Positions 1-14,827 of a stretch of DNA of 64,000 nt are shown here, piece after piece; positions within the stretch are counted from its first letter, which is position 1; each line of letters starts with the position of its first letter. The translations under genes and the position numbers were made by a program. The notes under the pieces were generated by a model. The model was not told the DNA's origin. It saw only the letters and a program-made list of their open reading frames with translations, and ran no database searches. The stretch lies in the NCBI RefSeq assembly GCF_014191375.1, contig NZ_JACHWN010000004.1, positions 1 to 64,000 of the forward strand, written 5' to 3'. This DNA is from Mesorhizobium sp. RMAD-H1 (GTDB taxonomy: Bacteria; Pseudomonadota; Alphaproteobacteria; Rhizobiales; Rhizobiaceae).

Positions 1-155
1 TTGGATTCGGCGATGTTCGCCCCGATCCCGGCAAGCTCCGTCGTCACCGCAGCCACAATCCCCGGCTGATCCTCGCAGGAAAGCGTCAGGATGTAGGCGC
101 TGGCATGCTTCAGGGCGGTTTCGGTTCCCATGGCGGGATTCACGGAAAGGTTCAT
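1..155 (-). CDS. purU: Formyltetrahydrofolate deformylase, N-terminal part
   Basis: Partial: only about 51 codons are inside the window, reading leftward off the edge. The N-terminus has the ACT-domain pattern ILTLSCEDQPGIVAA followed by GANIAES, as in PurU. PurU hydrolyses 10-formyl-THF to formate plus THF in the cytoplasm. It follows the panB-like gene directly and is probably the last gene of the leftward mocDEF-like operon, so it may recycle a folate-bound C1 unit there. The ATG at 155 has GGAG about 10 nt upstream. An in-frame ATG at 164 overlapping the panB-like stop (ATGA) is an alternative. The catalytic formyltransferase-like domain is not visible, so another ACT-domain protein cannot be fully excluded. 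Confidence 0.82.
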   Translation of the reverse strand, partial: MNLSVNPAMGTETALKHASAYILTLSCEDQPGIVAAVTTELAGIGANIAES

Positions 156-160
156 CGGTC

Positions 161-961
161 TCATGCTCCGGCAAGATCGTTGAGAAAGCGGTCGAGTTCG
201 TCACGGGGAATCCGGACGACATGGCCCGGCCCGGGATAGACGCCCTTTTCGACATCGGCAACGAATTCCGCAAAGGCGGCGACGCGCTCCCGCTGCAGGC
301 GGTCATATTCGGCGGCGAAATTGCGGTAGACCTTGGCGTGGCGCGGATAATGGCGGCGATGCGCGCCGAGCACATCCTCGGCGAAGAGATATTGCGCGTC
401 GCAGCCCGCGCCGGCGCCCATCGAGATCATGAAAAGCGAGGTGCGAGCGGAAATGGCGGTTGCCACCTCGGAGGGCACGACCTCGATCTCGGCGGCGAAG
501 GCGCCCGCCTCCTCGAGCGCCCGCACCTGTTTCCAGACGCGGAACGCGCTTTCAGCCGTCTTGCCCACCGCCTTGAAGCCGCCCGTCCATGTGGCCCTGG
601 ATGGGATCAGCCCGACATGGCCGCAGACGGGGACGCCCTCCGCCCGGAGCGTGCGGATGGTGTCGAGCCCTGCCGCGCAATAGACGGCATCGGCGCCGGC
701 GCGAATCATGCGGAAGGCTTCGCCGAGGCATTCGTCCTTCGCCACATAGACGCTCTTCTCGCCGCCCGGCACGGCAAAGCAGGTCGGCGCTGCCTCGCGG
801 AACCGTGGGTCGGTCATCAGCTCCGGCGGCACCGAAAGCATCTCGACACCGGCCTTCTGCGCGGCCTCCGCCTCTTCCAGCGTGGTCACGCGCAGCATGG
901 TGAGCTGCTTCCTGCCTTTCAGCGCCAGAATATCGGCGACCGTCGGTCTTTTCGGCGACAT
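161..961 (-). CDS. Divergent PanB-fold protein (ketopantoate hydroxymethyltransferase-like)
   Basis: 266 aa, the normal PanB length. PanB transfers a hydroxymethyl group from methylene-THF to ketoisovalerate. Family landmarks are retained: CGHVGLIP (about residues 113-120), the GGFKAVGK loop, the segment holding the catalytic-base glutamate (AEIEVVP, E160), GAGAGCDAQ and the VEKGVYPGPGH C-terminus. By recalled alignment with E. coli PanB, the Mg2+ ligands D45, D84 and E114 and neighbouring K112 fall in VEMLSVPPEL (39-48), CFAVPGG (61-67) and AVYCAAG (92-98), where none is conserved. Normal ketopantoate synthesis is therefore unlikely. The start at 961 has a GGGAGG Shine-Dalgarno. It sits between the mocF-like gene (32 bp gap) and purU, suggesting a folate/C1-related role. 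Function unproven. Confidence 0.8.
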   Translation of the reverse strand: MSPKRPTVADILALKGRKQLTMLRVTTLEEAEAAQKAGVEMLSVPPELMTDPRFREAAPTCFAVPGGEKSVYVAKDECLGEAFRMIRAGADAVYCAAGLDTIRTLRAEGVPVCGHVGLIPSRATWTGGFKAVGKTAESAFRVWKQVRALEEAGAFAAEIEVVPSEVATAISARTSLFMISMGAGAGCDAQYLFAEDVLGAHRRHYPRHAKVYRNFAAEYDRLQRERVAAFAEFVADVEKGVYPGPGHVVRIPRDELDRFLNDLAGA

Positions 962-993
962 GCCGTTCCTCCCTTTCAATGGATTATGCCGGA

Positions 994-2226
994 TTATGCC
1001 GCGAGCAGCGTCTTGAGCCTGGTCGCCGGCGAGGCCAGATGCCGCGCGTCCGGCTTCGCGCCTCTGGCGATCAGCATTTCGGCCAGCCGGATGTCTCTGG
1101 CGACCGCCGTTCCCTGCCCGATACCGCTCGCCGCCACCAGCCTGCCGTCATCGGCGAGATGGAACAGGATGAAGGCATCCTCGCCCAGGTCACGGCGCAC
1201 GACATGCCCGCCCTCGTCGCAGAGCCCGGCGATCTGCAGCCCGAGATCGTACTGGTCGGACCAGAACCACGGCACGGCACTGTGCGGCGCGGCATGGCCG
1301 AGCATGTTCCGCGCGGCAAGCGTCCCCTGTTCCTGCGCGTTGCGCCAGGCTTCGAGCCGCATCCGTCTGCCGCCGTAAAGCGCAAGGGGAAACGAGCAGC
1401 AATCGCCGGCGGCGAAGATATCGGGATCACTTGTTCGCAGATATTCGTCGACCGCGATGCCGTTCTCGATGGCAAGCCCCGCGGAGCGCGCCAGATCGGT
1501 GGCGGGAGCCGCACCGATGCCGATGATCGCGAGATCGGCCTCCACGCGCCGGCCGCTCGCCAGGCGAAGGGTGACGCAGGCGCCACCCTCGGTCATATCG
1601 GCAATGCCGTCGCCTGTGACGAGCTCCACGCCCTCCGCGCGATGGCGGGCATCGATCACGGCGGCGATCTCCTGCGGCACGCCGCGCATCAGGATACGTG
1701 GCTGCGCCTCGATCAGCGTTACTTCCGCGCCGACCCGGCGCGCGGCAGCCGCGAGCTCCAGACCGATGAAGCCGCCGCCGATGATGGCGATGGATCGGCC
1801 GGGGCCGAGATGGCGGCGGATCGCCAGTGCGTCGTCGAAGGTGCGCAGGTAAGCCATGCGCGGCCCATGGGCAAAGGGCAGGCGGCGCGGTGTCGCGCCG
1901 GTCGCAATGAGCAGGCGTTCATAGGCAAGGCCGGTGCCATTGCCGAGTAGCACCCTGCGCGCATGGCGGTCTATGCCTGTTGCCGCCGTCTCCGGCATGA
2001 AATCGATACCATGCGCCGCAAGCCGCGCATGATCGGCAATGGTTTTTGCCTGCGGATCGTCCGCGGCCATCGCCTCCTTGGAGAGCGGCGGCCGCTCATA
2101 GGGCAGGTGACGCTCCGCGCCGACCAGCGTCACCGACCCGTCATAGCCCTGTTCGCGCAATGCGACGGCGGCGCGCGCGCCGCATTCGCCCGCGCCGATG
2201 ATGACCATTCCCGCACCCATCGCCAT
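994..2226 (-). CDS. mocF: FAD/NAD(P)H-dependent ferredoxin reductase, MocF-like
   Basis: 410 aa NADH:ferredoxin reductase of the Rieske-oxygenase type. It should pass electrons from NAD(P)H via FAD to the adjacent Rieske ferredoxin. The N-terminal dinucleotide motif is MVIIGAGECGARAA; a second Rossmann motif IAIIGGGFIGLELA lies near residue 150, and the FAD-binding segment DIFAAGDCCSF follows in the second half. The ATG at 2226 overlaps the mocE stop (ATGA), giving translational coupling; a longer open frame upstream runs through mocE and is not credible. The desaturase-Rieske-reductase trio matches mocDEF of rhizobial rhizopine catabolism. The symbol is by family and context. Confidence 0.88.
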   Translation of the reverse strand: MAMGAGMVIIGAGECGARAAVALREQGYDGSVTLVGAERHLPYERPPLSKEAMAADDPQAKTIADHARLAAHGIDFMPETAATGIDRHARRVLLGNGTGLAYERLLIATGATPRRLPFAHGPRMAYLRTFDDALAIRRHLGPGRSIAIIGGGFIGLELAAAARRVGAEVTLIEAQPRILMRGVPQEIAAVIDARHRAEGVELVTGDGIADMTEGGACVTLRLASGRRVEADLAIIGIGAAPATDLARSAGLAIENGIAVDEYLRTSDPDIFAAGDCCSFPLALYGGRRMRLEAWRNAQEQGTLAARNMLGHAAPHSAVPWFWSDQYDLGLQIAGLCDEGGHVVRRDLGEDAFILFHLADDGRLVAASGIGQGTAVARDIRLAEMLIARGAKPDARHLASPATRLKTLLAA

Positions 2227-2540
2227 CACCCGATTCCGATGAAGACCTTTCCGGCTTCCACTTTCACCGGATAGGTTCTGAGGTTGATACAGACCGGCGC
2301 GCCCTTGGCCTCGCCCGTCTTGTAGTTGAAGCGGCCATTGTGTTTCGGGCATTCGATGATCTCGTCCATCACGAGGCCATCCGCCAGATGCACCTGCTCA
2401 TGGGTGCACAGGCCGTCGGTTGCGAAAAATTCATCGTCCGGGCTGCGATAGATGGCGAATGTCCGTCCGTCATGATCGAAGCGGATGACGTCTTCTTCGT
2501 CGATCTCGTCCGCCGCGCAGGCTTCGATCCAGTTGCTCAT
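2226..2540 (-). CDS. mocE: Rieske [2Fe-2S] ferredoxin, MocE-like
   Basis: 104 aa soluble Rieske ferredoxin. The cluster ligands are visible as C45-x-H47 and C64-x2-H67 (CTH and CPKH motifs). Single-domain proteins of this size shuttle electrons from a reductase to an oxygenase. It lies between the membrane oxygenase and the reductase genes, overlapping the latter by ATGA, so the three probably form one electron-transfer chain. In rhizobia the equivalent MocE takes part in removing the O-methyl group of 3-O-methyl-scyllo-inosamine. The substrate here is not proven. Confidence 0.92.
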   Translation of the reverse strand: MSNWIEACAADEIDEEDVIRFDHDGRTFAIYRSPDDEFFATDGLCTHEQVHLADGLVMDEIIECPKHNGRFNYKTGEAKGAPVCINLRTYPVKVEAGKVFIGIG

Positions 2541-2579
2541 TTCTTTCCTCCCATGCTTCTGGAAAGCGATGCCGATCGG

Positions 2580-3671
2580 CTATTCCGCAGCCTGAGCAAT
2601 GGCATCGCTGTGGAACTCCTCCCGGTAGGGCTTGGCCGTCGGCGGCAATTCGCGCTTGAGGAAATAATCCTCGTTGCGCAACTGCCGGATGAAGGCCGGG
2701 ATCATCTCGCGATAGCCATCGAGAATCGATGTGTTCGGCGCCGGCAGATCGTGCCTGATCGCTTCATGCAGCTTCGGCAGCGCATGATAGGGCACCATCG
2801 GGAACATGTGGTGCTCCACATGATAGTTCATGTTCCAGTAGATGAAGCGGCTGACCGGGTTCATATAGACCGTGCGGCTGTTGAGCCGGTGGTCGGTGAC
2901 ATTGTCGGCAAGCCCGCCATGCTGCAGAAGCCCCGTCAGCACGTGGTGCCAGGCGCCGTAGAGCCGGGGCAGGCCGATCAGCATCAGCGGCAGGATCGAT
3001 CCCAGATGGAGGGCGAGCGCGATTGTTGCCGCATAGATCGCCACCCAGATGCGGGCGATCCGCACCACCTTGTGCTGCTCCTGCTCGGGGATGAAGGTCT
3101 TCTCCTCCGCGCTGACATTGCCGCAGGCATTGCGCAGCATGTCGCCGATGGCATGCCAGGCGTCGAGGAGGCCGAAGAAATTGAGGATGAGGCGGAGAAG
3201 ATCCGGCGGCCGCATCACCGCGATTTCCGGATCGCGCCCGACGATGATGGTGTCGGTATGGTGCCGGGCATGGCTCCAGCGCCAGGTGACGGGATTGCGC
3301 ACCATCATGAAGGAGGCGATCTGGTAGACCGCGTCGTTCATCCAGCGCGTCTTGAACGCCGTGCCGTGCCCACATTCGTGCCAGCGCGAATCCGCCGCCG
3401 AGCCGTAGAGCACGCCATAGGCGAGGAAGAAGGGAACGCACCACCAGCTGCCCCAGAAAGCGATGCCGAGCCCGCCGAAGAGGATCATGCAGCCGAGCCA
3501 GATGGTCGTGTCGCGGATCGCCGGCCCGTCGCTGCGCTTCATCAGTTCCTTCATCTGCTTGCGCGGGACGTCGGTGTGATACCATTCGGCGGCGGCAAGC
3601 CCGTTTGCCACGGCGGCCTGCGCGTCACGTCCGATCAGGCTGTAGTCGCGTCTCGTCGGTATGGCATTCAT
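2580..3671 (-). CDS. mocD: Membrane di-iron oxygenase of the fatty-acid desaturase family, MocD-like
   Basis: 363 aa integral membrane di-iron oxygenase. Three histidine boxes are intact: HECGH (98-102), HARHH (134-138) and HVEHH (284-288). Hydrophobic segments lie around 57-95 and 205-240. The ATG at 3671 is preceded by GAGGAGG at 5 nt; an upstream in-frame ATG at 3710 lacks such a site. It is the first gene of the leftward operon and diverges from a LacI regulator. With its own Rieske ferredoxin and reductase downstream, and a cyclitol isomerase and sugar importer nearby, an O-demethylase/hydroxylase on a cyclitol methyl ether fits better than lipid desaturation. A fatty-acid substrate remains the alternative. 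Confidence 0.9.
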   Translation of the reverse strand: MNAIPTRRDYSLIGRDAQAAVANGLAAAEWYHTDVPRKQMKELMKRSDGPAIRDTTIWLGCMILFGGLGIAFWGSWWCVPFFLAYGVLYGSAADSRWHECGHGTAFKTRWMNDAVYQIASFMMVRNPVTWRWSHARHHTDTIIVGRDPEIAVMRPPDLLRLILNFFGLLDAWHAIGDMLRNACGNVSAEEKTFIPEQEQHKVVRIARIWVAIYAATIALALHLGSILPLMLIGLPRLYGAWHHVLTGLLQHGGLADNVTDHRLNSRTVYMNPVSRFIYWNMNYHVEHHMFPMVPYHALPKLHEAIRHDLPAPNTSILDGYREMIPAFIRQLRNEDYFLKRELPPTAKPYREEFHSDAIAQAAE

Positions 3672-3722
3672 GAGAGCCTCCTCTCTCTGCATTTCCAGCC
3701 GGCAGAACATTATCCCGGGTGG

Positions 3723-3758
3723 TTGACGGCCTCAACGAAGCGATGATATTTTCTATCA
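3723..3758 (+). promoter_or_regulatory. Candidate promoter and operator between mocD-like and lacI-type genes
   Basis: The 142-bp divergent gap is AT-rich in its middle. A possible sigma-70 promoter for the regulator reads TTGACG (3723-3728), 16 bp, GATATT (3745-3750). A perfect inverted repeat TGATA-N5-TATCA (3744-3758) covers that -10 box, as an autoregulatory LacI-family operator would. Sequence-based only. Confidence 0.4.
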
Positions 3759-3813
3759 CAAAGCATCATTTCAGCCTTGCAATTTTGATGTATTCTTCTC
3801 ATGGGAGAGCCCA

Positions 3814-4851
3814 ATGGCGAAGCGCCCGACCATTGCCGATCTGGCTGCCGAGGCCGGCGTCAGCGTCGCGACGGTCGACCGGGTGCTCAATGGCCGGCTG
3901 CCGGTGCGCGAGGAGACGGCGCGCCGCGTCTATGAGGCGGCCAACGCCATCGGCTATCACGCGGCGGGGCTGATCCGGCACAGGCTGCAGCAGGATCTGC
4001 CGCATCATCATCTGGGCTTTATCCTGCAGCGGCCCGACCAGCCCTTTTATCAGGCGTTCGCGCGCGAATTGAAAAGCGCGGTCGAGACCGCGCAAGGCTT
4101 TCGCGGCACCGCCCATATCGATCATTTCGTCACGCGTACCCCGGCGGAGATTGCGTCCAAGCTCAAGGAGGTGGCCGCCCGTTGCCGGGCCGTCGCCATG
4201 GTTGCCGTCGATCACCCCACCATCACCGCGGCGGTCGCTGACCTCAGGGAGAAAGGCATTCCGGTCTTCTCGCTGCTCTCCGATTTCGCTTCCGGTGCGC
4301 GCGAGAGCTATATCGGCCTCGACAACCGCAAGGTCGGGCGCACGGCGGCCTGGATGATCGCCAAGGCGGCGAAAAAACCGGGAAAGGTGGCGATTTTCGT
4401 CGGTAGCCACCGCTTTCATGGCCATGAGCTGCGCGAGATTGGCTTCCGTACCTATTTCCGCGAGCATGCGCCGGAGTTCGAGGTCATCGACACGCTCGTC
4501 AATCTGGATGACCATCACATTGCGCAGGAGGCGAGCTTCGATCTTCTGCAGCGCTATCCCGATCTTGCCGGGCTCTATCTCGCCGGTGGCGGCATGGAGG
4601 GTGCGATCGCCGCGCTGCGCGAGGAAGGGCTTGCGCGCGCCAGCAGCCTCGTCACCGTCTGCAACGAGATAACGCCGGACAGCCGCGCCGCCCTCGCCGA
4701 GGGCCTCATCACGCTGGTGATCGCCACGCCCCTCGAGCGGCTTTCACGTGAGCTTGTCGCCCAGATGGGCCATGCGATCGAAACCGGCGGAACCGGTACG
4801 CCGGGGCAGATCTTCCTTCCCTTCGACATGCATATTTCCGAGACGATCTGA
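3814..4851 (+). CDS. LacI-family transcriptional regulator
   Basis: 345 aa. The N-terminal helix-turn-helix (about residues 5-25, TIADLAAEAGVSVATVDRVL) and hinge are followed by a periplasmic-binding-protein-like effector domain. The AUG has GGGAGAG upstream. Divergent from the mocD-like gene and upstream of the cyclitol isomerase and ABC importer genes, so it most likely represses the cluster and is released by the imported sugar or cyclitol. Classic rhizopine clusters use a GntR/MocR-type regulator instead, so this is a different control arrangement. Inverted repeats at 3744-3758 and 4862-4900 are candidate binding sites. Confidence 0.93.
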   Translation: MAKRPTIADLAAEAGVSVATVDRVLNGRLPVREETARRVYEAANAIGYHAAGLIRHRLQQDLPHHHLGFILQRPDQPFYQAFARELKSAVETAQGFRGTAHIDHFVTRTPAEIASKLKEVAARCRAVAMVAVDHPTITAAVADLREKGIPVFSLLSDFASGARESYIGLDNRKVGRTAAWMIAKAAKKPGKVAIFVGSHRFHGHELREIGFRTYFREHAPEFEVIDTLVNLDDHHIAQEASFDLLQRYPDLAGLYLAGGGMEGAIAALREEGLARASSLVTVCNEITPDSRAALAEGLITLVIATPLERLSRELVAQMGHAIETGGTGTPGQIFLPFDMHISETI

Positions 4852-4861
4852 TCCTTCTTGT

Positions 4862-4907
4862 CTGATGGAAATCCATCAGTCCCGAACGGCATTCCATCAG
4901 CCCTGAT
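4862..4907. promoter_or_regulatory. Inverted-repeat cluster, candidate LacI-type operator
   Basis: Just after the lacI-type stop lies the palindrome CTGATGGAAATCCATCAG (4862-4879). A third copy of its half-site TCCATCAG occurs at 4893-4900 and is followed by CTGAT. There is no T-run, so an operator for the downstream isomerase gene is more likely than a terminator. The outer TGAT...ATCA arrangement resembles the repeat at 3744-3758. Confidence 0.45.
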
Positions 4908-4981
4908 AGGTTCTGGATTCGTGATCCCGCATCCAGATTGACTTTGCGCGAGGCCTGGCACTGGATTGAGGCATCTGCATT

Positions 4982-5003
4982 GGCGCCGCTCGTGGGCGGC
5001 GCC
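4982..5003 (+). other. Strong hairpin in the leader of the isomerase gene
   Basis: GGCGCCGC (4982-4989) pairs perfectly with GCGGCGCC (4996-5003) across a 6-nt loop, 11 nt before the Shine-Dalgarno of the next gene. It could influence transcript stability or translation; no T-run follows. Confidence 0.4.
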
Positions 5004-5027
5004 CGACTGGCTTTGGGAGGATGAGAG

Positions 5028-5882
5028 ATGACTGATCGCAGCGCTTCGCCGCGTTTCGCTTTGAACCACATGACTGTGCCCGGATTGGACATGGCCGGGC
5101 TTTTCGGCCTTGCCCGGCGGCTCGGCATGAACGAGGTGGAGATCCGCAATGATCTCTCGGAGAACGGCTCGCCGGCAAAGGGCGATATCCGTGCCGTGCC
5201 CGCCGGGGAAGCGCGCCGCCTGGCCGAAGAGAGCGGCATCGCCATCATCTCGATCAACGCCTTGCAGCGCTTCAACGCGTGGACGCCGGAACGCGCCGCC
5301 GAGGCCGTCGAGCTTGCCGACTATGCCAGGGCGAGCGGCGCCCGGGCGCTGGTGCTGGTTCCCGTCAATGACGGCACCGGCCAGGCGGATGGCGAGCGCC
5401 AGCGCAACCTGCGCGAGGCATTGACGGCCTTGAAGCCGATCCTGGCGGAACGCAGGCTCACAGGGCTGGTCGAGCCGCTCGGTTTCGAGATCTGCTCGCT
5501 GCGCTCCAAGCGTGAGGCGGCTGATGCCATTGCCGATATCGCGGGAGAGAATGTTTTCCGCCTGGTGCACGACACCTTCCACCATATGCTCGCGGGCGAG
5601 GACGCCTTCTTTCCCGGACTGACCGGTCTCGTCCATATCTCAGGCGTGGCCGATCCGGCGCTGGCCTATCCGGAGATGCGCGACGCCCATCGCGTTCTGG
5701 TCGATGAAAGGGATCGTCTCGGCAATGCCGGCCAGATCCGGACGCTGCTCGAGGGCGGCTATGACGGTCCCCTGTCTTTCGAGCCTTTCGCGCAGGAGGT
5801 GCATGATTTTCAGGAACCCGAGCGCGAAATCGCCGCCAGCATGGCCTTCATCCGCCATGCATTCGCAAAAGCGGCCGCTTGA
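5028..5882 (+). CDS. TIM-barrel sugar isomerase/epimerase, IolI/MocC-like
   Basis: 284 aa, AP-endonuclease-2/xylose-isomerase-like TIM barrel. The stretches FALNHMTVPG, EVEIRNDLSEN and ISINALQRFNAWTPERA resemble rhizobial IolI (2-keto-myo-inositol isomerase) and MocC. Candidate metal ligands are E157 in LVEPLGFE, D189 and H191-H192 in VHDTFHH, and E259 in SFEPFAQEV. IolI interconverts inososes of the myo- and chiro-series, which would suit demethylated pinitol-type compounds. GGGAGG lies 7 nt before the ATG. A strong terminator follows, so it may be the end of a lacI-isomerase unit. Exact substrate unknown. Confidence 0.85.
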   Translation: MTDRSASPRFALNHMTVPGLDMAGLFGLARRLGMNEVEIRNDLSENGSPAKGDIRAVPAGEARRLAEESGIAIISINALQRFNAWTPERAAEAVELADYARASGARALVLVPVNDGTGQADGERQRNLREALTALKPILAERRLTGLVEPLGFEICSLRSKREAADAIADIAGENVFRLVHDTFHHMLAGEDAFFPGLTGLVHISGVADPALAYPEMRDAHRVLVDERDRLGNAGQIRTLLEGGYDGPLSFEPFAQEVHDFQEPEREIAASMAFIRHAFAKAAA

Positions 5883-5903
5883 ACCGATCCCAGGCAAACC
5901 CAG

Positions 5904-5945
5904 ATGCCGCCGCACCGGAGATGGCTCTGGTGCGGCGGCATTTTT
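5904..5945 (+). terminator. Rho-independent terminator after the isomerase gene
   Basis: ATGCCGCCGCACC (5904-5916) pairs with GGTGCGGCGGCAT (5929-5941), continuing inward through G-U and GAG/CTC to an ATGG loop, about 17 bp in all. The stem runs straight into TTTTT. It separates the isomerase gene from the ABC importer operon. Confidence 0.9.
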
Positions 5946-6308
5946 ATCGGTTTGCGCCGCTTGCCGCCAATTGCGGAATTGACGGCGCGCAAATAAAATG
6001 GAATAAATATTTCACTAAATCGAAAAACGGTCCATTCATTCCGTTTTGCTGATGAGTGACCGCGGTCGCGAGGAAGCGGGAAGCGTTGGGAGTGCTTCCA
6101 CTCCAGCAAGTCCAGGAAAGCGCATGAGCCGCTTTTCGGGAAAGCAGGAGCTGTTTTCCTTCGGGCCTGCGGAAAAGCCAAAGACCGGAGCGTCTCCGGT
6201 TTCAGGGCCGAGCCGCTCTGACGGAGGAATGGCCAAGAATTCCCCTGGGAGGGGGAGTTTCCGGATAAGGGGGTGCAGCCGGGCACCGATAAGTGGAGGA
6301 GAAGCGAA
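5946..6308 (+). promoter_or_regulatory. Non-coding region before the ABC importer, candidate promoter and operator
   Basis: No gene is seen in these 363 bp. A possible promoter is TTGACG (5979-5984), 17 bp, AATAAA (6002-6007). Just downstream, AAAACGG (6024-6030) and CCGTTTT (6041-6047) form a perfect inverted repeat with a 10-bp spacer, a good operator candidate. The remainder includes a palindromic repeat remnant (6106-6145) and the GGAGGAG ribosome site before the binding-protein gene. Confidence 0.45.
6106..6145. repeat. Diverged copy of a palindromic intergenic repeat
   Basis: Begins GCAAGTCCAGGAAAG and continues to GCTTTTCGGG, closely resembling the element at 27346-27390. The two copies share the GCAAGTCCAGGAAA head and the TTTTC core, and both lie in non-coding gaps of transport operons. 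Confidence 0.5.
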
Positions 6309-7235
6309 ATGAAGAAATTTCTTTTGGCCGCGGCCGTTTCGGCGCTGATGACGGGCTCGGCGCTCGCCGAGAATATCGGCGTGTCGATGGCGCTGTTCGA
6401 CGACAACTTCCTGACCGTTCTGCGCAATGGCATGCAGGACTATGCCAAGACCAAGGACGGGGTCAATCTCCAGGTCGAGGACGCGCAGAATGACGTTTCC
6501 AAGCAGTTGAGCCAGATCCAGAACTTCATCGCCCAGGGCGTGGATGCGATCGTCGTCAATCCGGTCGATACCGATGCCACGCCGAAAATGACCAAGCTTG
6601 CGGTCGAGGCCGGTGTCCCGCTCGTCTATGTCAACCGCATGCCGGCGGATAAGGAACTGCCCGAGAAGGTCTCCTTCGTCGGCTCGAACGAGGTCGATTC
6701 CGGCACGCTGCAGATGAAGGAAGTCTGCCGTCTGATGGGTGGGAAAGGCGATATCGTCGTGCTCATGGGCGAGTTGTCCAACCAGGCGGCGCGCCAGCGC
6801 ACGCAGGATATCGAGGATGTGATCGCCACCGACGAGTGCAAGGACATCAAGATACTGGACAAGCAGACCGGTAATTGGCAGCGCACGCTCGGCACCGATC
6901 TGGTGACCAACTGGATCAGCGCCGGCCTGAAGCCCAATGCCATCGTCTCCAACAATGACGAAATGGCGATCGGCGCCATCCAGGCCCTGAAGGCATCGGG
7001 CATTTCGACCAAGGACGTGATCGTCGCCGGCATCGACGCGACGCAGGACGCGCTGGCGGCCATGAAGGCGGGCGACCTGCGCGTCACCGTTTTCCAGAAC
7101 GCCGCCGCTCAAGGGTCGGGCGCTATCGATACCGCGCTGAAGCTCGCCAAGGGTGAAAAGGTGGAATCCATGGTCTGGGTGCCGTTCGAACTGGTGACGC
7201 CTGAGAACATGGACCAGTACATGGCGAAGAACTGA
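6309..7235 (+). CDS. Periplasmic sugar-binding protein of an ABC importer (MocB/RbsB type)
   Basis: 308 aa. A signal peptide begins MKKFLLAAAVSALM and is cleaved after SALA. A type-I periplasmic-binding fold of the ribose/galactose/cyclitol class follows (NIGVSMALFDDNFLTVL, IVVNPVDTDATP, VSNNDEMAIGAIQALK, GIDATQDALAAMKAG). The start at 6309 follows GGAGGAG; an upstream in-frame ATG would add residues before the signal peptide. It captures the substrate for the ATPase and permease encoded next. Next to an IolI/MocC-like isomerase and mocDEF-like genes, it could bind a methylated cyclitol or inosamine. Ligand not proven. Confidence 0.92.
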   Translation: MKKFLLAAAVSALMTGSALAENIGVSMALFDDNFLTVLRNGMQDYAKTKDGVNLQVEDAQNDVSKQLSQIQNFIAQGVDAIVVNPVDTDATPKMTKLAVEAGVPLVYVNRMPADKELPEKVSFVGSNEVDSGTLQMKEVCRLMGGKGDIVVLMGELSNQAARQRTQDIEDVIATDECKDIKILDKQTGNWQRTLGTDLVTNWISAGLKPNAIVSNNDEMAIGAIQALKASGISTKDVIVAGIDATQDALAAMKAGDLRVTVFQNAAAQGSGAIDTALKLAKGEKVESMVWVPFELVTPENMDQYMAKN

Positions 7236-7317
7236 CCTTGCCGAATGGAGCCGGCATCCATGGGTGTCCCTCATCTGCCGGCTGGGGTCGAGCCGCGGGT
7301 CTCGGCCTCCGCACATG

Positions 7318-7403
7318 GGGAGAGGAAGATATGGAGACGCCCATCTCCTCTCCCTGTCCTTCAGCTTGAGTCTGCCGGATGGCCGGAGGAGGACGGGGAG
7401 AGG
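7318..7403. repeat. Palindromic element between binding-protein and ATPase genes
   Basis: GGGAGAGGA (7318-7326) and TCCTCTCCC (7346-7354) form one hairpin. CTCTCCCTGTCCT from 7349 and AGGACGGGGAGAG from about 7391 form a second, overlapping pairing with one mismatch. This mosaic type of intergenic repeat is typical of Phyllobacteriaceae-like genomes. Its place just after the binding-protein gene could stabilise that message relative to the ATPase and permease. Confidence 0.5.
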
Positions 7404-7450
7404 GTGAAGGCCGGAGACGAGCAATCGGTCCGAAAAAGGGAGGAAGCGGA

Positions 7451-8989
7451 ATGATAAGCCCTGTGACGATGCGCGCCGTGCGCGATTCAGGTGCGATTCC
7501 CAACTCGGAATTCCTTTTGGAAGTCGAGGGCGTGCGCAAGGCCTTCCCAGGCGTCGTCGCGCTGGACGATGTCTCCTTCCGGCTTCGGCGTGGCAGCGTG
7601 CATGCGCTGATGGGTGAGAACGGCGCCGGCAAATCGACGCTGATGAAGATCATCGCCGGCGTCTATACGCCCGACAGCGGCTCATTCAAGCTGCGCGGCA
7701 ACGAGATCGAGCTCAATTCGCCGCTCGACGCGCTCGAAAACGGCATCGCCATGATCCATCAGGAGCTGAACCTGATGCCTTTCATGACCGTGGCGGAGAA
7801 TATCTGGATCAGGCGCGAACCGAAGAATGCATTCGGCTTTGTTGATCACCGTGCGCTGCGCGAGAAGACGGAGGAGCTGTTCGAAAGGCTCAACATCCGC
7901 ATCGATCCCGAGATCAATGTCGGTGAACTGTCGGTCGCCAACCGTCAGATGGTCGAGATCGCCAAGGCCGTCTCCTATGAATCCGATGTCCTCATCATGG
8001 ACGAGCCGACCTCGGCGCTGACAGAGCGTGAGGTCGATCATCTCTTCCAGATCATCCGGGCCCTCAAGGCCGAGGGCAAAGGCATCGTCTACATCACGCA
8101 CAAGATGAACGAGCTGTTCGAGATCGCCGATGAGGTGTCGGTGTTCCGCGACGGCCATTATATCGGCACGCACACGGCCGAAGAGGTGACGCGCGACGAC
8201 ATCATCCGCATGATGGTCGGCCGTGAGATCACGCAGATGTTCCCCAAGGAGGAGGTGCCGATCGGCGATGTCGTCCTGTCCGTGCGCGATCTGACGCTGA
8301 AGGGTGTCTTCCACGATATTTCCTTCGACGTGCGCGCGGGCGAGATCCTAGGCATAGCGGGGCTTGTCGGGTCGGGCCGCTCCAATGTCGCCGAGGCGCT
8401 GTTCGGCGTCACGCCTGCCACGTCGGGCGAAATTTCGATCAACGGACGGGTCGTCGATATCCGGACACCGGCGGTCGCCATGCGTCATGGCATGGCTTTC
8501 CTTACCGAGGACCGCAAGGATACCGGCTGTTTCCTCGTCCTCGACACTCTCGAAAACATGCAGATGGCGGTGCTGCGCGACCGGTATGTCAAGCGCGGCT
8601 TCGTCTCGGAAGCCGAGATCGCGCGCGAGTGCGAGCGCATGCGCGAGGCGCTGCGCATCAAGACGCCCGATCTCAACGAGAGGATCGAAAACCTCTCCGG
8701 CGGCAACCAGCAGAAGGTATTGATCGGGCGTTGGCTGCTGACGCGCCCGCGCATCCTCATCCTCGACGAGCCGACGCGCGGCATCGATGTCGGCGCCAAG
8801 GCGGAGATCCACCGGCTGATCACCAGGCTCGCGGGCGAGGGCGTGGCAGTCATCATGATCTCTTCGGAAATGCCCGAGGTGCTTGGAATGAGTGACCGCA
8901 TCATGGTGATGCACGAAGGACGTGTGACCGGCTTCCTCGATCGCGCCGAGGCAAGCCAGGTCAGGATCATGGAACTGGCCGCGCAATAA
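7451..8989 (+). CDS. Sugar ABC transporter ATP-binding protein (RbsA/MglA type, two ATPase domains)
   Basis: 512 aa with two tandem ATPase domains, as usual for type-2 carbohydrate importers. Domain 1 has Walker [10 protein letters not shown] (55-63), signature [14 protein letters not shown] and Walker [12 protein letters not shown]. Domain 2 has the degenerate P-loop GLVGSGRSN, a normal signature [14 protein letters not shown] and Walker [15 protein letters not shown]; one degenerate site is common in this family. The ATG at 7451 has GGGAGG about 6 nt upstream; an open frame extending further upstream crosses a repeat and is not supported. It energises import through the downstream permease. 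Confidence 0.95.
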
Positions 8990-9020
8990 TCTCATCACGC
9001 GCTGGAACCGGGAGGGAGCA

Positions 9021-10049
9021 ATGGCGATGGAACAGGTAACGCAACCCGCGCAGCGGCTGGATCGGCCGAAGCACCGGCGCAAGATGCCGACGGAGGCCAA
9101 TATCTTTCTGGTGCTGATCGGCATCGCGCTGATCTTCGAGCTTCTGGGATGGCTCCTCGTCGGCCAGAGCTTTCTTTTCAACAGGCAGCGCCTGGTGGTG
9201 ATGATCCTTCAGGTCTCGGTCATCGGCATCATCTCCGTCGGCGTCACGCAGGTCATCATAACAGGCGGCATCGATCTTTCGTCGGGCTCCGTGGTCGGGC
9301 TGACCGCGATGATCGCGGCGAGCCTCGCCCAGACTTCCGATTATGCTCGTGCCGTCTATCCCATGCTCACCGACATGCCGGTTCTCGTGCCCGTGCTGGC
9401 GGGGCTTGCCGCCGGCGCCGTCGCCGGCCTCATCAATGGCAGCCTGATCGCCTATACCGGCATCCCGCCCTTCATCGCCACGCTCGGCATGATGGTCGCC
9501 GCCCGCGGCATGGCAAAATGGTATACGCGCGGCCAGCCGGTCTCGATGCTGAGCGACAACTATGCCGCGATCGGCTCCGGCATATGGCCGGTGGTGATCT
9601 TTCTCGTGGTGGCGCTCATCTTCCATATCGCGCTGCGCTATACGCGCTACGGCAAGTTCACCTATGCCATCGGCGCCAACATGCAGGCGGCGCGCGTCTC
9701 GGGCATCAACGTTGGACGTCATCTGATCAAGGTCTATGCCATTGCCGGCCTGCTTTCCGGTCTGGCCGGCGTGGTGCTCTCGGCCCGCGCCATCTCGGGC
9801 CAGGCAGGCATGGGCGTTGCCTATGAGCTCGACGCCATCGCGGCGGCCGTCATCGGCGGAACCTCGCTGTCGGGCGGCGTCGGCCGCATCACAGGAACGG
9901 TCATCGGCACGATCATTCTCGGCGTCATGACCTCCGGTTTCACTTTCCTGCGCATCGACGCCTATTATCAGGAGATCGTCAAAGGCATCATCATCGTCGC
10001 CGCCGTGGTCGCCGATCAGTATCGCCAGCGCAAACGGCGCAAGGCTTGA
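9021..10049 (+). CDS. Sugar ABC transporter permease (RbsC type)
   Basis: 342 aa integral membrane permease with about ten hydrophobic segments. The family signature GGIDLSSGSVVGLTAM lies near residues 82-97, and the conserved GxSLSGGVGR stretch is in the second half (GGTSLSGGVG). A short cytoplasmic N-terminus precedes the first helix. GGGAGG stands just before the ATG and the gene is 31 bp after the ATPase gene. It forms the channel of the importer made with the binding protein and dual ATPase, and is followed by a strong terminator that ends the operon. Confidence 0.95.
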   Translation: MAMEQVTQPAQRLDRPKHRRKMPTEANIFLVLIGIALIFELLGWLLVGQSFLFNRQRLVVMILQVSVIGIISVGVTQVIITGGIDLSSGSVVGLTAMIAASLAQTSDYARAVYPMLTDMPVLVPVLAGLAAGAVAGLINGSLIAYTGIPPFIATLGMMVAARGMAKWYTRGQPVSMLSDNYAAIGSGIWPVVIFLVVALIFHIALRYTRYGKFTYAIGANMQAARVSGINVGRHLIKVYAIAGLLSGLAGVVLSARAISGQAGMGVAYELDAIAAAVIGGTSLSGGVGRITGTVIGTIILGVMTSGFTFLRIDAYYQEIVKGIIIVAAVVADQYRQRKRRKA

Positions 10050-10678: not shown

Positions 10679-10753
10679 ATAAGTTGCTGCAATGCGGTAT
10701 TTTCGCAGGTCTTGCGGTTGTCTCCTCCGAACGTCCGAACTACCTTTAGGCCC

Positions 10754-11569
10754 ATGTCTGTAAAAGAGCATGACCCGATGGCCCGTCCTCCCAAGACCGC
10801 ACCATCCGAAGTCCCTGCCTATCCCCGTGGTTTGCCCGACGGCAGCCGCAGTTCGCTCGCCGGCTGGGCGATTTTCCTCGATATCGACGGAACGCTGCTC
10901 GATATCGCCGAAACGCCGGAGGCGGTCCGCATTCCGGAAGGGCTGACCCCGGATCTTGTCCGTCTTTCACGCAAGCTCGATGGTGCGCTGGCGCTGGTGA
11001 CGGGCCGTTCCATAGCCTTCGTCGACGAGATCTTTCGCGGCGCGCGCTTTCCCGTGGCGGGCCTGCATGGCGCCGAGCGCCGCGATGCGATGGGCCGCAT
11101 CAGCCATGTCGAGCTGACGCCTGATTTCCTGCGGGCGAAGGACGAATTGAAGGAGCGGGCGCTCGCCTGGCCGGATATCCTCGTCGAGGACAAGCATGCC
11201 GCGATAGCGGTGCATTACCGCCAGGCGCCGCAGCATGAGCGCGACATGCAGGAGCTCATGCGCGAGATCGCCGCAATCGCCGGCCCGAAATGGACCCTGC
11301 AGCAGGGCAAGATGGTCACGGAGCTGCGCCCCGCCGCGCATGACAAGGGCCATGCGCTCGCAGCCTTCATGGCCGACCCGCCCTTCTCGGCGCGGCGGCC
11401 GCTCGCCTTTGGCGACGATGTGACGGACGAGGCGATGTTCAGGGCGGCCAATGCGGCCGACGGTCTGTCGGTGAGGATCGGCGGCCCGTCGGATGGAACA
11501 TCGGCAGCCGGCCTTTTCATGGAATCCCCCGCCACTTTGCGATCATGGCTATCGGAAATTGCACAATGA
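10754..11569 (+). CDS. otsB: Trehalose-6-phosphate phosphatase
   Basis: 271 aa HAD-superfamily phosphatase. It dephosphorylates trehalose-6-phosphate, made by OtsA, to trehalose. Motif I DIDGTLLD (nucleophile and general-acid aspartates), the VTGRS motif and the late metal-binding FGDDVTDEAMF are all visible. The start is uncertain: ATG 10754 or ATG 10778, neither with a strong ribosome site. The stop overlaps the following GH15 gene by ATGA, and otsA follows, so the three are one operon, probably for osmotic or desiccation tolerance. Confidence 0.93.
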   Translation: MSVKEHDPMARPPKTAPSEVPAYPRGLPDGSRSSLAGWAIFLDIDGTLLDIAETPEAVRIPEGLTPDLVRLSRKLDGALALVTGRSIAFVDEIFRGARFPVAGLHGAERRDAMGRISHVELTPDFLRAKDELKERALAWPDILVEDKHAAIAVHYRQAPQHERDMQELMREIAAIAGPKWTLQQGKMVTELRPAAHDKGHALAAFMADPPFSARRPLAFGDDVTDEAMFRAANAADGLSVRIGGPSDGTSAAGLFMESPATLRSWLSEIAQ

Positions 11570-13404
11570 ATAATCCAAATCCCTTTGCGAACAATTCTCC
11601 CCTCGATCTGAAACAGCTCCCCTCGCTCGACCTGGGCGTCATCGGCAATTCTGCCACCGCCGCCCTGATCGACCGTTATGGCAAGTTCGTCTGGATGTGC
11701 ATGCCGCGTCTGGACGGCGACCCGATCTTCTGCAGCCTTCTGGGCCAGGGCAATCCGGAGCAGGAGGGCGGCGACTGGGCGATCGAGATCGACAATCTCG
11801 TCTCGAGCCAGCAGCGCTATCTGCGCAATACCGCGGTTCTCGAAACGGTGCTGACCGATGAAAAGGGCAACAGCCTGCGCATCCGCGATTTCGCCCCCCG
11901 CTTCAAGCATCACGACCGCATCTTCAGGCCGATGGCCATCATCAGGCTGGTGGAGCCGATCGTCGGCACGCCGCGCATGACGATGCGCCTGCGCCCGCGC
12001 TTCAACTACGGCGCCGCCATCCCCGAGACGACCCGCGGCTCCAACCATCTGCGCTTTTTGACCGGCCCGCAGGTGATCCGCCTCACCACGGATGCGCCGA
12101 TCAGCTTCATCCAGGAGGAGACGCCCTTCATCGTCGATCGCCCCTATGCCTTTGTTCTCGGTCCCGACGAGACCCTGCAGGAATCCCCCATGCGCGTGGC
12201 GAAGGATTTCCTCGATGAGACCTGCAATTACTGGATCGAATGGGTGCGCTATCTCTCCCTGCCGGTGGACTGGCAGGATGTCGTCATCCGGGCGGCGATC
12301 ACGCTGAAATTATGCGCCAATGAGGAGACGGGCGGCATCGTCGCCGCACTCACCACCTCAATTCCCGAATATGGCGCGAGCGGGCGCACATGGGATTACC
12401 GCTTCTGCTGGCTGAGGGATTCCTATTTCACGGTCAAGGCGCTGAACCGGCTCGGAGCGACCAGGACCATGGAGGACTATCTGCGCTATGTCACCAACAT
12501 AGCCGCAGGCTCCCCCGACGGCTATCTTCAGCCGCTGTTCGGGCTCGGCCTGGAGCGCCGGTTCGACGAGGAATTGATGGCGAGCCTCCCCGGCTACCGC
12601 AATCTCGGGCCGGTGCGCAGCGGCAATGCCGCCTATATGCAGGTGCAGAACGACGGCTATGGCTCGGTCATTCTCGCCATCGCGCAATGCTTCTTCGACG
12701 AACGGCTGCCGACCATGGGTGACGAGGCACTGTTCCGCAGCCTCGAACCGCTGGGCGAGCAGGCCGCGGCGCGCTGGAACCAGCCCGATGCCGGCCTATG
12801 GGAGTTCCGCACCCGCAACGGCGTCCACACCCATTCCAGCGTCATGTGCTGGGCCGCCTGCGACCGGCTTTCGCGCATCGCCACCAAGCTCGGCATTGAG
12901 GATCGCGCCGCCCATTGGCGCCAGGTTGCCCAGGCGATCCGGGAGGAGACGCTCACCCGCGCGTGGAATGCCGAGAAGGGATATTTCGCGTCCGCCTTCG
13001 ACGGCGAGGATCTCGATGCCTGCCTGCTCCTAATGCCGGAGGTCGGCATCCTGTCGGCGTCCGATCCGCGTTTCCTCGCAACGCTCGACGCGGTTGAAAA
13101 ACATCTGCGTTTCGGCAATCATCTCTACAGATACCGCACGCCGGACGATTTCGGCGAGCCGGAGACGGCTTTTACGGCCTGCACGTTCTGGCTGATCGAA
13201 GCCCTGGCCCGTGTCGGGCGCACTGAAGATGCCCGCGCCGTTTTCGAGGAAGTGCTGGCGCACCGCAATCATCTGGGCCTGCTTTCGGAGGGATTGCATA
13301 TCGAAAGCGGAGAATTGTGGGGCAATTTTCCGCAGACCTACTCCATGGTCGGCCTCATAAATGCCGCCATGCACCTTTCGCGCTCGTGGGAGGAGGTATT
13401 GTAA
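11566..13404 (+). CDS. Glycoside hydrolase family 15 protein (glucoamylase/trehalase-like)
   Basis: 612 aa. An N-terminal beta domain (DLGVIGNSATAALIDRYG, WMCMPRLDGDPIF) is followed by an (alpha/alpha)6 barrel containing GRTWDYRFCWLRDS and the late SGELWGNFPQTYSMVGLI, both GH15 landmarks. The family cleaves alpha-glucosidic bonds by inversion, and some bacterial members are trehalases. The ATG at 11566 overlaps the otsB stop; an in-frame ATG at 11545 lies inside otsB. Placed between otsB and otsA, it may hydrolyse trehalose or a related maltooligosaccharide, so the operon could both make and turn over trehalose. Exact substrate not determinable. Confidence 0.92.
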   Translation: MNNPNPFANNSPLDLKQLPSLDLGVIGNSATAALIDRYGKFVWMCMPRLDGDPIFCSLLGQGNPEQEGGDWAIEIDNLVSSQQRYLRNTAVLETVLTDEKGNSLRIRDFAPRFKHHDRIFRPMAIIRLVEPIVGTPRMTMRLRPRFNYGAAIPETTRGSNHLRFLTGPQVIRLTTDAPISFIQEETPFIVDRPYAFVLGPDETLQESPMRVAKDFLDETCNYWIEWVRYLSLPVDWQDVVIRAAITLKLCANEETGGIVAALTTSIPEYGASGRTWDYRFCWLRDSYFTVKALNRLGATRTMEDYLRYVTNIAAGSPDGYLQPLFGLGLERRFDEELMASLPGYRNLGPVRSGNAAYMQVQNDGYGSVILAIAQCFFDERLPTMGDEALFRSLEPLGEQAAARWNQPDAGLWEFRTRNGVHTHSSVMCWAACDRLSRIATKLGIEDRAAHWRQVAQAIREETLTRAWNAEKGYFASAFDGEDLDACLLLMPEVGILSASDPRFLATLDAVEKHLRFGNHLYRYRTPDDFGEPETAFTACTFWLIEALARVGRTEDARAVFEEVLAHRNHLGLLSEGLHIESGELWGNFPQTYSMVGLINAAMHLSRSWEEVL

Positions 13405-13417
13405 GGGAGGAGATATC

Positions 13418-14827
13418 ATGGGCCGACTTGTCGTCATCTCCAACCGGGTCCCGCTCCCGGATAAAAGCGGCACCGCCCCGGCAGGGGGGCTTGCCGTCGC
13501 GCTTCAGGCAGCGCTTGAGGAGCGCGGCGGCGTATGGATGGGCTGGTCGGGAAAAACGACCACCTCCCGCGAACGGGCCGGATTCCACATTCACAAGCAT
13601 GGCAAGATCACTTACGCCCTGGTCGATTTGAGCCGCAAGGATCTCGACGAATATTATGCGGGTTTCGCCAACCGCGTTCTCTGGCCGCTCTGCCACTACC
13701 GCCTGGACCTGACCGAGTATGCGCGCAAGGACATGGCGGGATATTTCCGGGTCAACCGCCTCTTCGCCCATCATCTCGCGCCGCTGATCAAGTCTGATGA
13801 CATGATCTGGGTGCATGATTATCACTTGATCCCGCTTGCTTCGGAATTGCGTCAGATGGGGCTGAAGAACCGCATCGGCTTCTTCCTGCATATTCCCTGG
13901 CCGCCGGCGGACGTGCTGTTCACGCTTCCGGTCCACGAGACGATCATGCGCGGGCTCGCTTCCCATGACGTCATCGGCTTCCAGACCAGCCATGACGTGG
14001 AGAATTTCGCCGGATGTCTGAGGCGTGAGGGTATCGGACGCGAGATCGGCAAGGGCCTGTTCGAGGCCTATGGCCATGCGTTCCGGGCCGAGGTGTTCCC
14101 CATCAGCATCGATACGGCCGCTTTCGCCCATGTCGCGCAGAATGCGCAGCGCCATGCCATGGTGCAGCGCATGCAGAAGAGCCTCGGCGACCGTGATCTG
14201 ATCATCGGCGTCGACCGGCTGGATTATTCCAAGGGCATCACCAACCGCATCGAGGCCTTCGAGCATTTCATCACCAACAATCCCGGCAGCCAGGGCAAGG
14301 TGACCTTTCTGCAGATCACGCCGAAATCCCGCTCCGAAGTGCCCGAATATGAGGAAATGCAGCGTACGGTGGCCGAGCTCGCGGGGCGGGTGAACGGCGC
14401 CATCAGCGCGGTCGACTGGGTGCCGATCCGCTATGTCAACCGCTCCATCGGGCGCAATGTGCTTGCCGGCCTCTACCGCATGGCGCGGGTCGGGCTGGTG
14501 ACGCCGTTGCGCGACGGCATGAACCTTGTCGCCAAGGAATATGTCGCCGCGCAACGTTCCGAGGATCCGGGCGTTCTCATCCTGTCGCGCTTTGCCGGCG
14601 CCGCGCGCGAGCTCGATGGCGCGCTCCTGGTCAACCCCTATGATATCGAGGCGGTGTCGAACGCCATCGCCCGCGCGCTTTCCATGCCGCTCGAAGCCCG
14701 CCGCGAGCGCTGGAACCAGATGATGCCGCATCTCCTGGAGCATGACGTCTCCCGCTGGTGCGAGGATTTCCTCAAGGTGCTGGCCGCCGAACCCGGCGGC
14801 AGCACGGGCGCCGACCAGGCCGCCTGA
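13418..14827 (+). CDS. otsA: Trehalose-6-phosphate synthase (GT20)
   Basis: 469 aa, typical OtsA size. It transfers glucose from UDP-glucose to glucose-6-phosphate. Visible motifs are the N-terminal RLVVISNRVPLP with the GGL loop, WVHDYHL, FLHIPWPP, GVDRLDYSKGI and the C-terminal PLRDGMNLVAKEYVA. The ATG at 13418 follows GGGAGG, 13 bp after the GH15 gene; an in-frame upstream ATG falls inside GH15. Last gene of the trehalose operon, followed by a clear terminator. Confidence 0.97.
   Translation: MGRLVVISNRVPLPDKSGTAPAGGLAVALQAALEERGGVWMGWSGKTTTSRERAGFHIHKHGKITYALVDLSRKDLDEYYAGFANRVLWPLCHYRLDLTEYARKDMAGYFRVNRLFAHHLAPLIKSDDMIWVHDYHLIPLASELRQMGLKNRIGFFLHIPWPPADVLFTLPVHETIMRGLASHDVIGFQTSHDVENFAGCLRREGIGREIGKGLFEAYGHAFRAEVFPISIDTAAFAHVAQNAQRHAMVQRMQKSLGDRDLIIGVDRLDYSKGITNRIEAFEHFITNNPGSQGKVTFLQITPKSRSEVPEYEEMQRTVAELAGRVNGAISAVDWVPIRYVNRSIGRNVLAGLYRMARVGLVTPLRDGMNLVAKEYVAAQRSEDPGVLILSRFAGAARELDGALLVNPYDIEAVSNAIARALSMPLEARRERWNQMMPHLLEHDVSRWCEDFLKVLAAEPGGSTGADQAA

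Follow-up and report, generated by a model that had tools for sequence, protein, structure and literature searches.

A PanB-like protein beside mocDEF in Mesorhizobium sp. RMAD-H1: a probable O-methyl-cyclitol cluster with a candidate one-carbon enzyme

The left end of contig NZ_JACHWN010000004.1 of Mesorhizobium sp. RMAD-H1 (assembly GCF_014191375.1) raises the question of why a gene of a family annotated as ketopantoate hydroxymethyltransferase (KPHMT, PanB), a vitamin B5 enzyme, should be found in one operon with mocDEF-like genes for a membrane oxygenase and its electron carriers. The stretch analysed, termed the window, is 64,000 nucleotides in length (positions 1–64,000). The best explanation appears to be a LacI/FixV-controlled cluster for O-methyl-cyclitol utilisation, in which the PanB-like protein handles the one-carbon (C1) unit, with transfer to tetrahydrofolate (THF) as the favoured step; this is probable, with considerable room for doubt. 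Cyclitol O-demethylation by the cluster is well supported, by the match of its binding protein to one of a rhizopine moc locus and by inositol genes beside related clusters. The substrate, the demethylation chemistry and the folate hand-off are inferred. Most of the cluster belongs to a published arrangement; what is uncommon is the tie between a re-purposed PanB family and probable demethylating oxygenases from different families.

The features of the cluster are as follows.

1–164, minus strand: purU, 10-formyl-THF deformylase, first 54 codons only; the rest lies beyond the contig end.
161–961, minus strand: PanB-like protein, labelled KPHMT in relatives (PF02548; metal and keto-acid residues lost).
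994–2226, minus strand: mocF-like ferredoxin reductase (PF07992, Pyr_redox_2, and PF14759, Reductase_C; scanned as 994–2352).
2226–2540, minus strand: mocE, Rieske-type 2Fe-2S ferredoxin (TIGR02377, 187.9 bits against a cut-off of 136.15; C-x-H...C-x2-H motif).
2580–3710, minus strand: mocD-like membrane di-iron oxygenase of the fatty-acid-desaturase family, putative O-demethylase (PF00487).
3744–3758, no strand: candidate LacI/FixV operator, the palindrome TGATAGAAAATATCA (exact pattern match).
3814–4851, plus strand: LacI-family regulator, FixV-type (60% identity to the regulator adjoining mocDEF on R. etli p42e).
5028–5882, plus strand: IolI/Msi119-type TIM-barrel isomerase or epimerase (PF01261; 60% to the R. 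etli gene after lacI).
6273–7235, likely start 6309, plus strand: sugar/cyclitol-binding protein (SBP), MocB-like (63% to the SBP in the mocB position of a rhizopine locus).
7379–8989, plus strand: ATPase of a sugar ATP-binding cassette (ABC) importer, two ABC domains (domain scan).
9021–10049, plus strand: permease of the sugar ABC importer (domain scan).

A sequence-only reading of the window had placed here a leftward run of mocD-, mocE- and mocF-like, panB-like and purU genes, and divergently a LacI regulator, an IolI-like isomerase and a sugar ABC importer. All are present, purU as a 54-codon start only. The start of mocF overlaps the mocE stop (TGATG) and the start of purU overlaps the panB-like stop by four bases (ATGA), which indicates one transcript. 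The panB-like gene has a ribosome site, GGGAGG, ahead of the ATG at 961, and a version with a TTG start extends to 979. MocDEF system features found at the cluster are a MocE above its family cut-off, a desaturase-type MocD with three His boxes (HECGH, HARHH and HVEHH) and the order mocD-mocE-mocF. Plasmid homologues of the mocD-like gene show 81–85% identity among the matches listed (60 of 266).

The arrangement recurs in other genomes and is a conserved one among rhizobia (loci, genomes and contigs are cited by number as L, G and C). PanB-like matches in a sample of 249 genomes from the bacterial order of the host were split at 150 bits: 42 matches in 25 genomes have at least 150 bits, and the remainder, at 132 bits or less, are presumably mostly ordinary PanB; those left outside the 42 include G147:C1, truncated and clearly of the same family, and G036:C156. 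A MocD match lies within 10 kb of 29 of the 42 (28 from the close group, one distant), a MocE match near 30, either near 36 and neither near six. Seen from the other side, 28 of 47 close MocD matches have a panB-like gene within 10 kb and 38 have MocE, and panB-like is sometimes found within 12 bases of mocD. The recurrence of panB-like beside mocDE, lack of which would have counted against the sequence-only reading, is therefore confirmed, and the gene arrangement is not due to chance, as panB-like adjoins mocD/mocE in most relatives examined.

A set of 80 named loci, the nearest of at least 530 and thus biased toward close kin, contains mocD in 75, mocE in 76, mocF in 64, the same LacI in 58, the IolI-like gene in 48, purU in 29 on any match (22 at 40% coverage) and folD in seven, some loci being cut by contig ends. 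The complete set, importer included, is found in strains of Phyllobacterium and Shinella. In Sinorhizobium meliloti 1021 the LacI gene is SM_b20817 and mocDEF are SM_b20818–20820, followed by panB-like. Neighbour order was counted in the 113 of 133 loci that have a called panB-like frame (the other 20 are L066, L082, L091, L096, L098, L138, L142, L144, L148, L154, L161, L163, L176, L181, L185, L188, L192, L197, L215 and L216). Immediately ahead of panB-like lies mocF (58 loci), mocE (21) or mocD (10), together 89 of 113; panB-like is directly followed by purU in 17 loci, by iolG in six and by an opposite-strand gene in 40. A phylum-wide sample gave a PanB-like match at 1e-60 in 18 of 398 genomes, all of the host's class. 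One named locus, L141, comes from a metagenome-assembled genome (MAG) labelled beta proteobacterium, which may or may not be misbinned.

The partner of the PanB-like protein is not always of the MocD type. An oxygenase (FA_desaturase, FA_hydroxylase or Rieske alpha subunit) is found within 8 kb of 38 of the 42 PanB-like genes and of one of 20 control panB genes, which were hand-picked from low-scoring PanB-like matches and are not each proven PanB (Fisher p = 4e-11); the single control with an oxygenase nearby has a Rieske alpha subunit. MocE lies within 8 kb of 29 of the 42 and of none of the 20 (Fisher p = 6e-8). The control loci include three short ones, L222, L223 and L237, and three that have a PanB with Cys and Gln at two metal positions; the latter come from the genomes of L032–L034. 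The oxygenase at the 42 loci is a desaturase in 29, a hydroxylase in nine (one locus has both) and a Rieske protein in one, L110, which matches by construction since the Rieske query was taken from that locus, where Pfam had found it. Of seven loci from genomes outside the first sample, six have an oxygenase match (L215 only a weak Rieske match of 118 bits).

PanB-like proteins form one clade apart from reference PanB in a tree of 54 proteins (100/100). On this tree, which carries long-branch warnings and in which a partner label means within 8 kb and not the same operon, the hydroxylase label set against all other labels gives six gains or losses, all six forced by well-supported branches, and the desaturase and hydroxylase rows alone require at least five changes of oxygenase partner. 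FA_desaturase and FA_hydroxylase are different Pfam families with no BLAST similarity in the one pair compared, and the two His-box membrane oxygenase types may have a remote common origin. Because the partner has changed repeatedly, the role of the PanB-like protein seems tied to a shared product and not to one substrate.

What, then, is the PanB-like protein? It scores below both NCBIfam panB cut-offs (TIGR00222, 110 against 207.55 bits; NF001452, 127 against 272). Structural modelling predicts the KPHMT fold: the model has a mean pLDDT (predicted local distance difference test) of 84, and the first 28 matches in a PDB structure search are KPHMT chains (best E 7e-19, TM about 0.75). In Escherichia coli PanB, whose numbering is used here, Asp45, Asp84 and Glu114 are the Mg ligands, and Ser46 and Lys112 are keto-acid residues. 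Alignment A1 comprises 41 PanB-like proteins, i.e. 37 of the 42 (without L073, L082, L091, L096 and L098) and four plasmid copies. In all 41, Asp84 is replaced by Gly or Ala, Lys112 by Tyr, Ile or Phe and Glu114 by a non-acidic residue; Asp45 and Ser46 are gapped in all 41, and His136 and Glu181 are kept in all 41. In a second alignment nearly every sequence has a different residue at the Asp45 and Ser46 positions (the rows printed include one Asp and one Ser), and the rows printed show a lid deletion of about 20 residues beside these columns. Another set, A2, consists of 31 of the 80 named loci, without L189 (which has an inside stop) and L202. Asp45, Ser46, Lys112, His136 and Glu181 are kept in five of five reference PanB proteins, taken from the host and other genomes. 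L032–L034 carry three ordinary-type PanB proteins with Cys and Gln in place of the E. coli metal ligands Asp84 and Glu114.

The host carries a separate panB above the cut-off (316.6 bits). On plasmid p42e of Rhizobium etli CFN42, the gene directly after mocDEF is annotated KPHMT (RHE_RS26335), and its product is 67% identical to the PanB-like protein of the window. By product, plasmid and position it is taken to be RHE_PE00443, a ‘second panB’ which, in the passages of PMC3082293 devoted to it, is reported to have 5 of 12 active-site residues and no detectable metal site and to fail to complement a panB mutant (data not shown there). The terms ‘mocD’ and ‘rhizopine’ are absent from the text of that paper. 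Every annotated plasmid PanB-like record among the matches listed (60 of 276) is labelled 3-methyl-2-oxobutanoate or ketopantoate hydroxymethyltransferase; the failure of complementation contradicts this label for one plasmid-annotated member.

The linkage to purU was part of the same test. It does recur, in a minority of loci only. The idea of purU as a constant partner was dropped: panB-like is constant and purU is occasional. The 17 purU genes found directly after panB-like belong to two lineages, of 10 and seven genes, with about 74–98% identity to one member within a lineage and about 49–55% between them. The first is from Rhizobium/Agrobacterium/Sinorhizobium-Ensifer, and the second from Phyllobacterium, Mesorhizobium and a Devosia MAG. 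The purU stub of the window is nearest the second lineage; its identity to the PurU proteins encoded after panB-like in relatives (L136, L140) is 58% in a 53-residue and 67% in a 48-residue alignment. A four-base overlap between the panB-like stop and purU is found in five of the 17 loci, as in the window. Separate recruitment of two PurU lineages would be the simplest reading of these relationships, and is not proven. The order in Agrobacterium tumefaciens is panBL-purU-folD, and the PurU proteins after panB-like in Rhizobium leguminosarum and A. tumefaciens pass TIGR00655. Of the ‘two folate-type proteins’ described at first, purU is in place; the PanB-like protein is not a working PanB, and owes the term to descent and to its purU and folD neighbours, not to its residues.

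Work in E. coli bears on the proposed step. According to the relevant parts of PMC7073904, the spontaneous reaction of formaldehyde with THF is slow in vivo, too slow to feed growth. PanB has been named as a possible promiscuous catalyst of the step, and deletion of E. coli panB (with ltaE) had no effect in that work (PMC7073904). An enzyme for the step would thus fill a gap.

A pathway can be proposed as follows. The ABC importer and its MocB-like binding protein would take up an O-methyl-inositol, most likely of the pinitol type. With NAD(P)H as electron donor, MocF would reduce the MocE ferredoxin, and MocD would hydroxylate the O-methyl group to give a hydroxymethyl ether (hemiacetal). The PanB-like protein, with its metal and keto-acid site lost and His136 and Glu181 kept, would handle the departing C1 unit, the favoured step being transfer to THF to form methylene-THF. 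FolD would then oxidise methylene-THF to formyl-THF, which PurU would split into formate and free THF. The demethylated inositol might be isomerised by the IolI/Msi119-type protein and enter the iol pathway, of which two genes are found in the host.

With respect to the substrate, among solved structures 4yo7, presumably a myo-inositol complex, is closest to the binding protein (219 bits; the next has 158). The best solved relatives of the IolI-like protein are 2q02 and 4hgx (136 bits); 2q02 we take to be the product of a gene of the Salmonella inositol island, an identity sought in a paper and not confirmed there. Relatives of the cluster carry inositol genes. In R. rosettiformans, which has the same cluster, the gene that immediately follows panB-like is an iolG above the cut-off, and the other arm carries purU-folD. 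A Marivivens plasmid, as annotated, has LacI, mocD, mocE, an opposite-strand hydrolase, panB-like, a TIM barrel, an importer, iolG, iolC and iolD, with no mocF annotated. On a Phaeobacter plasmid a distant panB-like gene (35%) is grouped with a gene of the inositol-oxygenase family and one of the sterol-desaturase type. The host has iolD and iolE elsewhere in its genome. The binding protein is 63% identical to an SBP of the rhizopine-type locus of R. leguminosarum A1, a MocR-type locus with the order mocDEF-panB-like-purU; assignment of that SBP to the mocB position is our own reading of the mocBA unit in part of PMC10107442. The cyclitol substrate suggested from the window alone gains support from this match, from iolG near panB-like in relatives, from the Marivivens iolG-iolC-iolD genes and from the iolD and iolE of the host.

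Plant exudates point the same way. Mimosa exudate is reported to induce the mocDEF genes of R. mesoamericanum 1.5–2.1 fold, and of the components measured in this exudate pinitol had the highest concentration, 145 uM; the authors proposed a rhizopine (PMC5789663, in the parts concerned). Pinitol is also given as a main polyol of clover exudate (PMC8386446, in part). An O-methyl-inositol is thus the likely substrate, and pinitol is favoured as the best single guess. A rhizopine or another methylated sugar, in place of an O-methyl-inositol such as pinitol, seems rather unlikely. The mocDEF genes were named from rhizopine loci, and PanB-like proteins also occur in clusters with other sugar importers; however, neither a MocR nor a MocA-type gene is among the cluster proteins scanned, iolG and other iol genes are present in relatives of the cluster, and it is pinitol that abounds in the inducing exudate, whatever the authors' proposal (PMC5789663).

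It should be pointed out that several observations weigh against an O-methyl-cyclitol pathway with a folate hand-off. The binding protein is below the NCBIfam rhizopine-SBP cut-off (39.9 against 420), no such sugar importer adjoins the cluster in Sinorhizobium meliloti 1021 or R. etli CFN42, and pinitol is not set apart from ononitol, sequoyitol, bornesitol or rhizopine. Nineteen of the 47 close MocD matches, some at contig ends, have no panB-like gene within 10 kb, so panB-like is not required for every MocD; a search for an alternative C1 gene at two such loci gave no pattern (carbonic anhydrase in L122; acyl-CoA dehydrogenase and CoA-transferase next in L126). Neither an oxygenase nor MocE can be seen at L098, L100, L107 and L108 of the 42, at L218 of the seven and at L141, L147, L172 and L197 of the 80, some being cut by contig ends. 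Three of five reference PanB proteins have Cys for Asp84 and Gln for Glu114, and loss of these two residues alone is therefore not telling. In the sample of 249 genomes purU is near just two of the 42 PanB-like genes besides the window stub, and purU or folD may sit elsewhere in those genomes. Finally, the conserved E166 and H121 of the PanB-like protein may serve a reaction other than folate transfer.

An unlikely but respectable possibility is a folate-independent action of the PanB-like protein on the C1 unit or the hemiacetal: it might, e.g., speed breakdown of the hydroxymethyl ether, with release of formaldehyde for clearance by glutathione or THF routes, and purU would be just a convenient neighbour. 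The keto-acid and metal site is gone, and purU is not near most panB-like copies. On the other side, purU genes of two lineages have come to follow panB-like, with the four-base overlap in five of 17 loci and in the window, and folD is found in seven of the 80 named loci. A non-catalytic PanB-like protein that stabilises or places the membrane oxygenase would also explain the proximity (38 of 42 loci, sometimes 12 bases or less from mocD) and the loss of known catalytic residues. This is improbable, as two oxygenase families without BLAST similarity are hardly expected of a specific docking partner, and all 41 proteins retain residues equivalent to His136 and Glu181. That the gene encodes a true KPHMT making ketopantoate, which only shares the operon, is scarcely credible despite the plasmid annotations and the common fold, and is contradicted by the scores under the NCBIfam cut-offs, the keto-acid and metal residues lost in all 41, the separate host panB and the lack of complementation by R. 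etli RHE_PE00443 (PMC3082293, in part), by product and position the gene after mocDEF. A pantothenate role is thus ruled out, and that part is already known.

A LacI in place of the GntR/MocR type had at first seemed unusual. The LacI gene is present, but its novelty had to be given up, as FixV homologues are already published: the sections of PMC3538637 (2013) on regulators describe LacI regulators about 60% identical to Mesorhizobium loti FixV adjoining mocDEF, followed in certain species by a TIM-barrel gene, and propose an inositol derivative as inducer of FixV. These sections do not mention an operator, nor does the main text contain ‘panB’ or ‘demethyl’. A candidate operator, TGATAGAAWWTATCA, is found exactly at 3744–3758, with 0.08 copies expected per window at two or fewer mismatches. 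Of 81 lacI|mocD intergenic regions, 69 match it at 13 or more of 15 positions, as do about 0.1% of base-shuffled copies; since the pattern was derived from the very regions scored, many of close kin, this represents conservation and is not an independent test. The host genome has one exact copy, that of the window, and three with one mismatch. With a single exact copy, the regulon looks local.

Beyond the window, the PanB-like family could be a general folate-linked C1 acceptor for oxygenase demethylases, i.e. a KPHMT that has lost the metal-bound keto-acid half-reaction, has kept the hydroxymethyl half and was repeatedly recruited, catching the hydroxymethyl group before free formaldehyde forms. 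This is a tentative proposal, with somewhat less than an even chance of being right. The oxygenases concerned are MocD-type desaturases, sterol-desaturase-type hydroxylases and, in one locus, a Rieske oxygenase. No description of the tie between PanB-like proteins and demethylating oxygenases was found among the matches listed in the open-access literature.

Some individual loci deserve mention. In L110 (7989–9979) the gene for a Rieske oxygenase alpha subunit shares four bases with a distant panB-like gene. In L106, from the same genome, panB-like comes after genes for a MocD-like protein, MocE and a creatinase-type protein, which hints at N-demethylation. A Bradyrhizobium plasmid (L244, 6956–14061) has ribokinase, panB-like, sterol-desaturase-type, Rieske ferredoxin, TIM-barrel and reductase genes and then a GH88 gene, possibly a pathway for a methylated uronic-acid sugar. 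Part of L073–L085 and the Mesorhizobium loci L193, L202 and L207 share a conserved set of Gfo/Idh, TIM barrel, importer, DUF4432, mocD, mocE, panB-like and sometimes purU, the substrate of which is probably another O-methyl sugar.

The purU end of the cluster coincides with an assembly break. Window base 1 is the first base of contig C4. The opening 95 bases of this contig are found unchanged at the start of contig C9, on which there is a second purU start; the assembly thus breaks in a repeat. The two purU starts with 95 shared bases (window 1–95, L004 1–95) suggest that host purU was probably recently copied or converted. No PurU above the family cut-off is found in the host assembly (best 121.7 bits against 285.95). 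A second host cluster, at G000:C7 about 295000–299000 (L005 4780–8985), has LacI, an FA_hydroxylase-type oxygenase, MocE above the cut-off, a MocF-like reductase and then an aldo/keto reductase; there is no panB-like match within the surrounding 15 kb stretch. Adjoining the main cluster, at 10712–14827 of the window, are genes for a trehalose phosphatase, a GH15-family protein and a GT20 trehalose-phosphate-synthase-family protein, which appear unrelated.

If the proposed role is correct, a family annotated as a vitamin B5 enzyme would be re-assigned to C1 handling in demethylation, and an enzyme for the formaldehyde–THF step would be at hand. No paper naming bacterial genes for pinitol catabolism was found among the matches listed in the open-access literature, and the cluster is a concrete candidate for this function in model strains. 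The findings also bear on M. loti FixV, whose inducer is only guessed to be an inositol derivative in the sections on regulators (PMC3538637): related regulators would be placed on this pathway, with a conserved candidate operator.

How does the cluster compare with known systems? It resembles the FixV/mocDEF/Msi119 clusters, as far as described in the same sections (PMC3538637), in its divergent LacI of about 60% identity, its mocDEF genes and the TIM-barrel gene after the regulator, the comparison being with the R. etli genes and not with FixV or Msi119 themselves. With the rhizopine moc locus (mocABC, mocDEF and mocR; S. meliloti L5-30, R. leguminosarum) it shares the mocDEF order, a MocE above the cut-off and the MocB-like SBP (63%), and the R. 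leguminosarum A1 locus has panB-like and purU as well. It differs in that its regulator is a LacI and not MocR, and no MocA-type (Gfo/Idh) gene is among the nine window cluster proteins scanned. The mocDEF model is said to come from work of Bahar in 1998. The PanB-like protein resembles KPHMT in fold, C-terminal half, His136 and Glu181, but has the lid deletion of about 20 residues, has lost Asp45 and Ser46 and has Asp84, Lys112 and Glu114 replaced, and its R. etli relative is inactive for pantothenate. Sarcosine and dimethylglycine oxidases with folD-purU are folate-linked demethylation modules with a GcvT-like THF domain. The proposed pathway would resemble these modules in passing its product via THF, FolD and PurU, and would differ from them in having a protein of the KPHMT fold in the proposed role.

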